Of a DNA stretch of 64,000 nucleotides, positions 56,777 through 60,992 are shown piece after piece. Source of the DNA: Halobacterium jilantaiense (GTDB taxonomy: Archaea; Halobacteriota; Halobacteria; Halobacteriales; Halobacteriaceae); assembly GCF_900110535.1 (NCBI RefSeq), contig NZ_FOJA01000001.1:372001-436000 (forward strand), read 5' to 3'. Both the position numbers and the translations under genes were made by a program. The notes beneath the pieces are model-generated. The model was not told the origin of the DNA. It searched no databases and was given only the letters and a program-made list of their open reading frames with translations. Position 1 is the stretch's first letter. Each line of letters starts with the position of its first letter.

Positions 56777-57016
56777 ATGGAGAACGTGGACTTCGACGCA
56801 ATCCGCCACAGAGTGAAACTACTCGAAGATACGGGTGATTCTCGCCTGTTCGACAACCGAGACGACGTTCAGTGCCCCGTCTGCGAGCGCCCCTTCGACG
56901 AAGCGCTCGAGACAGAGCGGCGAACAGAACAGTTGAGCCCGCAGAGCGACCTGTCGTTCTGCCTCGTCAACGGAACGGACAAAATAATCCTATTCACGCA
57001 CGCGACCGATTCTTAG
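56777..57016 (+). CDS. Small CxxC 'flagella cluster' protein (DUF7385-like)
   Basis: 79 aa from ATG 56777 (MENVDFDAIRHRVKLLEDTGD). A zinc-ribbon-like CPVCERPFDE (Cys ~36 and ~39) lies in the middle. The rest is an alpha/beta segment ending TDKIILFTHATDS. A TATA-like CGTTAAG ~27 bp upstream supports this start over upstream ones. Proteins of this kind are annotated next to archaellins in other haloarchaea; function not known. Confidence 0.75.
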   Translation: MENVDFDAIRHRVKLLEDTGDSRLFDNRDDVQCPVCERPFDEALETERRTEQLSPQSDLSFCLVNGTDKIILFTHATDS

Positions 57017-57038
57017 AGATGATACCGGGTGGGAAACA

Positions 57039-57045
57039 TTTTATA
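57039..57045 (+). promoter_or_regulatory. TATA box that decides the transducer start
   Basis: TTTTATA is 26-32 bp before the ATG at 57071, so that ATG is the start. The upstream GTG at 57029 would lie before the TATA box and is not used. Confidence 0.6.
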
Positions 57046-57070: not shown

Positions 57071-58954
57071 ATGTTGAGCATCCTTCGCAAATTGCTTCGC
57101 CGGCAGTCCACGACGCCGGCACCGGACGGCGGCACCGAAGTCGGTGCCGTGTCTATCGACGAACCCGGCCGTGGCGGGTCAGCGCTCCGGGAGCGCTACG
57201 ATGTCGACGCAGTACACCTCGACCCCGAACTACCCGAAGAGGCGAACGATCACCTCGGGTCGCTGTTCGAGGATCAGAGCCCGAGCACCGAATCGTACGT
57301 TCCCGCCTATCAGGCTGCCGCGGTCTCCCCGAGTGAGTTCGTATCGGCCCACCGTGCAGCCGTCGACGGCGTCGTCGATGCGGCGTTCGACCAACTCCGT
57401 GAAGAGGGCGTCGACGAGGCCGCGATCGCGCGCGCTGAGAGCCAGATTCGCTTCGGGATGCACAAGGTCGTCGAGGACGCCGCTGATGGCGTCGCAGCTT
57501 TCGACACGGGCGAGGAGGATGAAGAAGAACTGAACGTCGAAGACGACGAACTCCTCGACGGCGTCGGGATGCCCGTGTTCATGCTCGATGCCGACGGCGA
57601 GGTCGTGGCGTGGAACCAGGCCCTCGCGGAGCTCACGAAGTGTTCGGCCAAGGAAGCCCTCGGCCTGCAGCACGCGAGCGAAGGATTCTACCCGGACGGC
57701 CGCCGGGCTATGACTCTCGCGGACAAGGTCGTCGAGGCACCGGAGACCGCCGACACCGAGTTCGACGTCGAGCGTGCCGACGCGACGAACGCACTGTACG
57801 TGGACTCGAGTACGATGGTGACCGCGGACGGCGAGGAGCGCGACATCCGGTTCAAGGCCAGCCCCATCTTCGACGACGACGGCGAGCTGATGGCTGTCGT
57901 CGAGACCGTCGAAGACCGCACTGAAGACATCCGTCGGGCGGATGCGGTCGAGGGGCTCGTCACCGAGCTGAGTTCGACCATCGACGCGCTATCGAACGGT
58001 CACCTGGAGCGCCGCGCGTCGTTCGAACACCAGGGCATCATCGACAAGCGGCTCGTGAACGTCGTCGACGACCTGAATGGAATGGCGGATCAGTTCGAGC
58101 GTCTCGTCGGGCAGGTCGACGGACAGACTCAGGAGCTCGCCGAATCCATCCGGCGCGCGACCGACGACGCCAACGAGATCGCGGAGACCGTGAACGAGCA
58201 GAACGACATGCTGTCGGGTGCGGCCAGCGAGATGGAGAACTTCTCGGCGAGCATGGAAGAGGTCGCGGCGAGCTCCGACCAGGTAGCGTCCGCAGCAGAG
58301 CAGGCCCAGGCCGCCGCCAAGAGCGGATTGGACGCCAGTGAGGGAGCGAGCCGGGCGACTAACGAGGTCATCGACATCAGCGACGACCTCGTGGACAGCG
58401 TCTCCGAGCTGGAGTCGAAGATGGAGGAAATCGAGGGCGTCGTCGAGGTCATCGCGGAAGTCGCCGACCAGACGAATCTCCTCGCACTGAACGCGAATAT
58501 CGAAGCGGCGCGTGCAGGTGAGGCCGGCAGCGGGTTCGCCGTCGTCGCCGACGAGGTCAAGGAGCTCGCGAACGAAACGCGTGAACACACGGAACGTATC
58601 GCTGAGCGCATCGACGACGTCCAGCAGCAGGCCAACGAGACCGTGTTGGCCGTCGAGGAATCCCACGAGCAGATTCACCGGGCTGGCGACGAGATCGACG
58701 ACGCGCTGACTGCACTCGAGGAAATCGCTGAGTCGGTCGACGAGGCGGCGACCGGCATCACCGAGGTCGCACGGGCGAACGACGAGCAGGCGTCGACCGT
58801 CGAGGACGTCATCGTCACAATCGAAGAAGTGCAGGGGCAGGCCCGCGAAGCCGCCGACGCGTCCGAGCGCATCGTCTCCGCGACGAGAAACCAGTCGGAG
58901 GCGGTCGCGGAGCTGAGCGATCGCGTCGACAGACTCACCAACGATAGCCAATGA
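57071..58954 (+). CDS. Cytoplasmic methyl-accepting transducer (Htr15-like)
   Basis: 627 aa from ATG 57071. No membrane helix. Residues ~35-150 form a helical N-terminal domain, ~165-290 a PAS domain ([26 protein letters not shown] to [14 protein letters not shown]), then a HAMP-like coil and the MCP signalling domain with the hairpin [21 protein letters not shown], followed by [21 protein letters not shown]. Senses an intracellular signal. The stop overlaps the arlD start (ATGA), unusual for a transducer. The gene order resembles the Htr15 locus of H. salinarum. Confidence 0.93.
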
Positions 58955-59421
58955 CGCTGAACCCACGCGAGTACGATCCCGAGGAGTTGCGCAGTGCGGC
59001 CAGAGCTGGCGGGGACGAGAACATCCGGGAGCTGAAAGAACGCCTGAAAGAGCACGAGCAGACCACCGAGGAGTCGGTGCGTTCGGAACAGCTGAAACAG
59101 CTGTTGTTCATGCATTCGAGCGCGTCCGAGGCTGAGCTCGAGCGCCCGTACTTGGAGTCGATGCCGGGGAAGTACGCGGCCGAAATCACGCTGTTCGAGT
59201 GGCTGGACTTCCTGCTGGAACGGGGCGGCGTGAAGCGCGCGCTGAAGGCAATTGAGTACTACGAGACCATCGGGTGGGTGAGCGAGAGCGCCGCCGAACG
59301 CCTGCAGAGTCACGTTCGCGGCTTCTCGGGGCCTGCAGACGACAACTCACACACCGACCTGGAGATGGCGGACCACGTGCTGAGCCTGGTGTACATCGCC
59401 CGGCTGTCGTCGATGGAGTGA
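58951..59421 (+). CDS. arlD: ArlD/FlaE-domain archaellum protein
   Basis: 156 aa. The FlaE-type domain is marked by [57 protein letters not shown]-terminal coiled region ([21 protein letters not shown]). Cytoplasmic part of the archaellar motor/Che interface. ATGA overlap with the transducer gene. Confidence 0.9.
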
Positions 59422-59490
59422 GCAGTAGCTGTTCACGTTCGATTAACTTCCCCGTGCCCGATTCATCTATCTGAGAACTGGGGGAGAACA

Positions 59491-59497
59491 TTAATTA
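59491..59497 (+). promoter_or_regulatory. TATA box of the arlCE operon
   Basis: TTAATTA lies 26-32 bp before the ATG at 59523, supporting that start and excluding the GTG at 59499. Confidence 0.55.
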
Positions 59498-59522: not shown

Positions 59523-60992
59523 ATGACGATTATCGACCTCACCCCGACTGTGGCTGTCTTCCTGCAGTTCGGGGCACTGGCCGTCGGGATGGCCAGTTGG
59601 CTCGACGACGAGGGGTCAGGGGACTCCGGCGGTGGCGGTGAGGGCGACGACTTCGACGTTGACGACGACTTCGACGACGACTTCGACGACGACTTCGGGT
59701 CGTTCGACGACATGGACAGCGGCGGTGGTGGCGATGGTGCGGGTGCCGCGGATTCGTCTGTCAACGAGCTCGAGAACCGCATCGAGGAACTCGAAACCGA
59801 AGTCTCGAACGTCGCGTCGAAGGCCAACACCGTCCGGAGCGAGAACGAACAGATAAGCGAGAGCGTCGAGGACGTCGAGGAGAACGTCCGAAAGCTTCTG
59901 GAGATCTACGAGATGGTCACGCGCGGCGTGAACCCGTTCGTCGACGACGTCGACCCGAACGCGGCTGGGGGCGGTCCGGGCGCGGGAGACCAGAGCTTCG
60001 GGCTGTTCGACGAGGACGAGGACGACGGAGCTGCCGACGACGACCTCGACTCCGATGTCGCGGACGCGGAGGCCGAGGAGTTCTTCGAGGACGACGCCTT
60101 CGACGACGACTTCGAGGAAGAGGAAGGCGACGACATGGGTGGCTTCGACGACGACTTCGAGGAGGACGCAGACGACGGGATGATGGACGACGATATGGGC
60201 GGTTTCGACGATGACTTCGAGGAGGGCGACGACATGATGGACGACGACATGGGCGGTTTCGACGATGACTTCGAGGAGTCGGAGGAAGACGAAGACGAGA
60301 TGATGGGCGACGACCTCGGGGACGAGGGCGAAGAGGCCGCCGGAGACGGTGGCGGAACGTCCTTCGAGGAGCTCAAAGAGGAGTACGAGTCCGGGGACGC
60401 TGACTGGGCCGAGGGCGAAGCGCCGGAGGACGAGGGCATCGAGGCCGAGAACAAGCCCGATATCGGGTTCGACGACTCGGACTTGGAGGCCGACGCCGAG
60501 GACGACGCTGAGCCAACTGACCTCGAGCCCGAACCAGAGCCGGAACCTGAGCCTGAGCCAGAGCCGGAACCTGAGCCCGAACCGTCTATCGACGAGGCGG
60601 CGGGCGCAGCGCCCGGCCCGGGGCTGGCACTCGGTGGCGACGACGGCCCGCACCTGGCGGAGCCGCCGAAGGGATACCTCTCGGACGTGATTTGTCTGGA
60701 GTGGCTCGACTACTTGCTGACCGAGTTCGGGCCGAAGAACACCGTCCGCACCATCAACTACTACGAGCGCATCGGCTGGATCGGAGAGCCAGTTCGCGAT
60801 CAGCTCTTTGACTTCCTGGAGGGGCTCACCGACTCGGACTACCTCTACCGAGAGGAGTTCGGGAGCACCGAGTTGACGATGGACGACCACCTGAAGAGCC
60901 TCGACTACATCGAGGAGCTGACCAGCGAAGACATCGAGCGGGTCATAGTCGACCGGTGCGAGGACCTCCACAGGAATGGGATTCAGCGTTAG
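59523..60992 (+). CDS. arlCE: ArlCE (FlaCE) fused archaellum cytoplasmic protein
   Basis: 489 aa from ATG 59523. N-terminal hydrophobic helix (LTPTVAVFLQFGALAVGM), an acidic coil, the FlaC/D coiled-coil (NELENRIEELETEVSNVASK), then repeated GGFDDDFEE blocks (~four to five), an (EP)n run, and a C-terminal FlaE domain (GYLSDVICLEWLDYLLTEFGP). Cytosolic ring/switch component. The length is inflated by low-complexity Asp/Glu expansions between FlaC and FlaE parts. Confidence 0.93.
   Translation: MTIIDLTPTVAVFLQFGALAVGMASWLDDEGSGDSGGGGEGDDFDVDDDFDDDFDDDFGSFDDMDSGGGGDGAGAADSSVNELENRIEELETEVSNVASKANTVRSENEQISESVEDVEENVRKLLEIYEMVTRGVNPFVDDVDPNAAGGGPGAGDQSFGLFDEDEDDGAADDDLDSDVADAEAEEFFEDDAFDDDFEEEEGDDMGGFDDDFEEDADDGMMDDDMGGFDDDFEEGDDMMDDDMGGFDDDFEESEEDEDEMMGDDLGDEGEEAAGDGGGTSFEELKEEYESGDADWAEGEAPEDEGIEAENKPDIGFDDSDLEADAEDDAEPTDLEPEPEPEPEPEPEPEPEPEPSIDEAAGAAPGPGLALGGDDGPHLAEPPKGYLSDVICLEWLDYLLTEFGPKNTVRTINYYERIGWIGEPVRDQLFDFLEGLTDSDYLYREEFGSTELTMDDHLKSLDYIEELTSEDIERVIVDRCEDLHRNGIQR
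60130..60290. repeat. Tandem repeat encoding acidic GGFDDDFEE blocks in ArlCE
   Basis: Repeated GACGACATGGGCGG followed by TTTCGACGATGACTTCGAGG units in frame, with small spacers. A second low-complexity stretch at 60525-60590 encodes alternating Glu-Pro. Confidence 0.8.

Follow-up and report, generated by a model that had tools for sequence, protein, structure and literature searches.

Gene content and conservation of the htr15-arlD locus

The window (the whole 64,000-nucleotide stretch of DNA analysed) belongs to the che/arl cluster of a 2.95-Mb Halobacterium genome, and the window features given with coordinates here lie on its forward (+) strand. The original prediction had placed a transducer gene and arlD within 57071–59421, and these coordinates proved exact, with the transducer gene at 57071–58954 and arlD at 58951–59421. 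The first gene, htr15, encodes a cytosolic methyl-accepting transducer of 627 amino acids plus stop, and the second, arlD (flaD), encodes an archaellum switch-complex protein of 156 amino acids. All the Pfam assignments were above cut-off, with E-values of 7e-43 (MCPsignal) and 8e-12 (PAS_4) for Htr15 and 1.4e-28 (Arch_fla_DE, PF04659) for ArlD. The latter was the sole Pfam domain of ArlD (99 bits, residues 64–153 of 156), whose gene is located in the arl cluster. Downstream, arlCE (59523–60992; FlaC_arch and Arch_fla_DE matches) is the transcription unit that follows in the arl block.

A gene for a small CPVC-type protein of the DUF7385 family (56777–57016; Pfam 3e-24) is located upstream of htr15. 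In the Halobacterium loci probed with its sequence, it sat 5' of htr15 next to the archaellin genes, with htr15 on its other side, and it is a conserved neighbour of htr15 that is separate from the htr15 promoter. Genes for DUF7385 proteins were also seen close to arl genes of further haloarchaeal families (L097 and L080), and a role as a motility-linked zinc protein is possible.

Judged by sequence and gene order, the product of 57071–58954 is orthologous to Htr15 of H. salinarum, with which it shares ~71% identity across the full protein, the same place, the same domains and the ATGA junction. The order of archaellins, DUF7385, htr15, arlD, arlCE, arlF, arlG, arlH and arlI in H. salinarum DSM 3754 was identical to that in the window. 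In H. salinarum, Htr15 is listed as OE2392R (PMC3579733) and VNG0958G (PMC2880973), where it is described as a cytosolic transducer with zero transmembrane helices and a signal that is not known. Since Htr15 and the gene order are on record for H. salinarum, the genes and the locus are already known; the published accounts, as far as their available parts go, carry no discussion of the overlap with arlD.

Domain architecture of Htr15

The MCP signalling domain of Htr15 (residues 421–588, 58331–58834) matched PF00015 with 146.8 bits against a cut-off of 34.6 (E-value 7.2e-43), and its hairpin tip, a 28-residue segment for CheA/CheW contact, was nearly invariant across the alignment (A1). A PAS domain (residues 159–285, 57545–57925) was recognized by PAS_4 (8.1e-12) and PAS (3.9e-9) and by Foldseek matches to PAS/LOV structures, while the full-length model matched mostly MCP and PAS structures. 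No transmembrane helix was detected in Htr15, the best 19-residue Kyte-Doolittle mean being 1.04 versus 1.9–3.0 in clearly membrane-bound paralogues. The predicted description of a membrane-free, PAS-bearing transducer was therefore right as to the PAS domain, the MCP domain and the missing transmembrane helix, but "membrane-free" may be incomplete in view of a cationic amphipathic N-terminus. PADLOC matches were dismissed as coiled-coil noise, and the NCBIfam MCP equivalogs were rejected for Htr15 with scores far under their cut-offs.

The N-terminal cationic amphipathic helix (residues 2–11, 57074–57103) is a candidate membrane or docking peptide whose character was conserved in 13 representative orthologues. 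Within these sequences, the hydrophobic moment exceeded that of shuffles (p=0.0002), and the helix was rich in K/R (21% versus 6% in the rest) and poor in D/E (5% versus 25%). Most of the orthologues examined had a DGG motif directly after a short N-terminal amphipathic helix; AlphaFold confidence was low at the helix. The helix resembles membrane-targeting amphipathic helices, and the conserved N-terminus suggests that at least some of the haloarchaeal receptors regarded as cytosolic may instead be peripherally attached to the membrane. The N-termini of two other soluble MCPs in the same genome, MTNVYKSVWRLG (L121) and MFEFITSLVPG (L126), likewise have the look of short amphipathic or hydrophobic segments. 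Tethering through the N-terminus may be widespread in cytosolic Htrs.

Between this helix and the PAS domain lies a helical domain (approximately residues 33–146, 57167–57508), modelled by AlphaFold with a pLDDT of ~84–95 over residues 41–140. No Foldseek match to the N-terminal domain reached E<=0.001. The best-probability match was the HemAT sensor 1or4 (E=3), and globin sensors recurred among the top fold matches, none of them significant. By hhalign, the profile of the domain could be aligned to the distal half of the HemAT globin (P 0.04–0.19), with a consistent register that places a Tyr at the proximal His position in the window protein; the conserved proximal His was missing from the helical domain of Halobacterium Htr15. 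A profile search of the domain against the PDB returned unconvincing helical matches only. The N-terminus of the window protein had no Pfam match, and weak Apolipoprotein/Protoglobin matches to this domain occurred in some members. Htr15 was thus rejected as a HemAT-type globin-coupled sensor because of the missing Pfam match, the Tyr in place of the proximal His and the non-significant fold matches. As a lead from these models, the domain is possibly a haem-less relic of a globin sensor.

Promoters and the overlap between htr15 and arlD

A TATA box (TTTTATA, 57039–57045) with a GGGGGAAAC-like element before it precedes the two genes. Its 3' end is 25 nt before the htr15 ATG, a spacing that suits a leaderless start at 57071. 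Alignment of the promoters from ten intact Halobacterium loci revealed that the TATA box was retained together with the GGGGGAAAC-like element and the spacing to the ATG; both elements were also kept at the pseudogene locus of a further genome, G120, and the box reads TTTTGTA in H. salinarum. An in-frame GTG at 57029 was rejected as the start codon, as it would put the TATA box within the gene. The TATA-defined start at 57071 that had been predicted is hence favoured by the conserved promoter.

The downstream arlCE gene has a promoter of its own, GAGAACTGGGGGAGAACATTAATTA (59473–59497), composed of a direct repeat of GAGAAC plus a TATA-like ATTAATTA. Its core was identical in 7/7 Halobacterium loci compared, and the element occurred at a single site in the genome even when 3 mismatches were allowed. 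Given this separate, perfectly conserved promoter, htr15-arlD is most readily regarded as a bicistronic unit distinct from arlCE. The two repeats (GAGAAC-N5-GAGAAC, 11-bp spacing) are perfectly conserved immediately 5' of ATTAATTA, an arrangement that looks like a regulator site.

The stop codon of htr15 overlaps the start of arlD in the predicted ATGA, which was confirmed at 58951–58954. A pattern search located arlD in 13/13 Halobacterium genomes examined, and 12 of them had an intact MCP frame overlapping arlD (4 nt in ten genomes, 1 nt in the other two); the overlap is therefore not due to chance. Overlaps of 4 nt were also present at three further junctions of this che/arl block (cheC3/cheD, cheD/cheR and arlG/arlH), and AUGA is the most frequent overlap in H. 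volcanii (PMC6728339). The htr15/arlD overlap is thus conserved yet not exceptional, an ordinary operon arrangement. In Haloferax, the downstream gene of AUGA-overlap pairs is strictly dependent on upstream translation (PMC6728339), so translational coupling of htr15 and arlD is likely by analogy. The shared promoter and the conserved overlap, together with this haloarchaeal precedent in the case of coupling, support both the operon and the translational coupling that had been proposed.

Distribution of the gene pair and decay of htr15 in G120

The thirteenth Halobacterium genome (G120, a single draft assembly) had only ~510 bp between DUF7385 and arlD. Its htr15 was a collapsed pseudogene, recognizable over the first 71 codons at ~40% identity (E-values down to 3e-10) and then interrupted by stops, and neither the PAS domain nor the MCP core was recovered between DUF7385 and arlD. 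The sole DNA at this htr15 locus that could be aligned to relatives was the promoter and start region (75–86% over 69–93 bp). ArlD was intact with 76% identity, as were arlCE, arlF, arlG, arlH and arlI. CheR was not found in G120, one CheW copy contained an internal stop, and a single MCP was left. Htr15 therefore decays along with chemotaxis and not with the motor in this genome, which represents a natural experiment separating loss of the receptor from loss of the sampled motor genes. Retention of the promoter beside a decayed htr15 and an intact arlD supports one promoter serving arlD, while the persistence of arlD and the sampled motor genes next to a dead htr15 speaks against Htr15 being a partner that ArlD requires.

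Conservation of the operon, which the original prediction had put forward for checking, held within the genus but not outside it: the overlap was present in 12/13 Halobacterium genomes, whereas no MCP adjoined arlD in ~30 other genera sampled, and a general MCP-arlD synteny was rejected. In two sister genera examined, the slot 5' of arlD was occupied by a gene either for a protein of integral-membrane type or for a divergent exported one, as identified from sequence reading alone. Orthologues of Htr15 in six Halorussus species and one Haladaptatus share the N-terminal helix, the helical domain, the PAS domain and the MCP domain, and are likewise encoded in a che/archaellin region. Unlike Halobacterium htr15, however, these genes lie co-directionally between HEAT_PBS and cheF2 and not beside arlD, and no overlap with cheF2 was seen in the 7 loci. 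Among the matches listed, a hand tally placed Htr15-like receptors within ~25 kb of cheF or arlDE in ~7/21 genera sampled (rough binomial 2e-5 to 2e-3, uncorrected for phylogeny). On this basis the Htr15-type receptor appears to be a recurrent resident of motility clusters, of which contact with arlD is the Halobacterium version. Two Haloferax volcanii proteins annotated as Htr15 (HVO_0555 and HVO_3005) are regulated together with the mot/che genes but, unlike htr15 in the window, are encoded outside the mot/che gene cluster (PMC10716476).

Possible functional relationship between Htr15 and the archaellum motor

We consider it probable (about 0.78) that htr15 and arlD form a genus-level bicistron in which ArlD is co-expressed with an ordinary array receptor. 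A chemoreceptor gene of the che/arl cluster would have come into the slot immediately 5' of arlD, giving rise to the bicistronic unit of the genus. One leaderless mRNA from the htr15 promoter would cover both genes, and ribosomes terminating on htr15 would reinitiate at the ATGA as the main route of arlD translation. Htr15 and ArlD would hence be co-expressed, and the overlap would be explained as an expression-level link that probably co-ordinates their production. By the same route, Halobacterium alleles of htr15 that carry nonsense mutations or insertions would be expected to have a polar effect on ArlD, which genetic studies could mistake for a motility function of the receptor. The PAS/helical N-terminal module of Htr15 would sense a cytoplasmic cue of redox or metabolic type, and the receptor would modulate CheA through CheW2/CheW1 from within the array, with CheY-P then acting on the motor via CheF and ArlCDE. 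Chemoreceptor genes also reside inside a motility operon in E. coli tar-tap, where they share a transcript with motility or chemotaxis genes but are not part of the motor; the neighbours of tar-tap are che genes, whereas the gene downstream of htr15 encodes a switch-complex protein.

The same gene arrangement could have arisen by neutral operon accretion, in which a receptor gene happened to arrive 5' of arlD and the overlap is kept only because arlD has lost its own start signals, leaving a coupling of no regulatory value. The different genes that fill this slot in sister genera, the abundance of 4-nt overlaps in the che/arl block and the promoter kept in G120 after the receptor had decayed would all fit such an origin. 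The recurrence of Htr15-like receptors near cheF/arlDE in about a third of the genera tallied, however, suggests selection for co-residence with motility clusters, and we regard neutral accretion as unlikely, though the better placed of the alternatives.

The original prediction went further in proposing that coupling may fix the receptor-to-motor ratio and place Htr15 close to the motor, as a physical link to the archaellum base. In such a model, coupled synthesis would allow Htr15 to bind ArlD either as a nascent chain or once complete. In general terms, the strongest point for such a partnership is the enrichment of complex subunits among gene pairs with short overlaps (45% of close pairs in H. 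volcanii; PMC10666635), which mildly favours it and counts against an ordinary array receptor. The recurrence of orthologues near che/arl interface genes (HEAT_PBS and cheF2 in Halorussus and Haladaptatus) weighs in the same direction, as CheF is the motor-side adaptor and docks on ArlCDE (PMC9126983). In the H. salinarum pull-down study, Htr15 was recovered with CheW2 more than with CheW1, and with CheY, which fished no other cytosolic group-3 Htr (PMC3579733). The recovery by CheY would suit a receptor at the motor, and the same data, in which Htr15 was not co-purified with CheA, weaken the case for membership in an active array.

These points are outweighed by the evidence against a motor-bound receptor. 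Recovery of Htr15 with CheW2, CheW1 and CheY in the H. salinarum pull-downs (PMC3579733) itself speaks for an array receptor. Adjacency to arlD is restricted to one genus, and Htr15 does not behave as a stable part of the motor or switch, its gene being absent from the side of arlD in the ~30 other genera and dead in G120, where arlD and the sampled motor genes are intact. FlaD was reported with CheF2 (OE2404R) in H. salinarum, and no Htr is named as a FlaD partner in the available parts of that interaction account (PMC2666748). In Haloferax, FlaD-GFP and CheW both form polar foci, with partial or no overlap, and ArlD (FlaD) and CheW foci each position without the other (PMC6509185), which by analogy argues against a linkage of array and motor. 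No docking segment was identified in Htr15. The physical link to the motor is thus not supported, in contrast to co-expression, and a receptor tied to the archaellum base is improbable. An elaboration, in which the N-terminal amphipathic helix tethers Htr15 to the membrane at the archaellum base and co-translational capture by ArlD (by CheF in Halorussus) puts the sensor on the switch complex as a local route bypassing the polar array, is the least probable of all.

Htr15-like receptors of another haloarchaeal family (L106, L107, L015, L108 and L021) terminate in an extended acidic tail with GGF(E/Q)F, which is reminiscent of the CheR/CheB-tethering pentapeptide; Halobacterium Htr15 is without such a tail. 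The acidic linker of ArlCE (59523–60992) contains a repeated MGGFDDDFEE motif that is similar to the GGF-F tail of those receptors.
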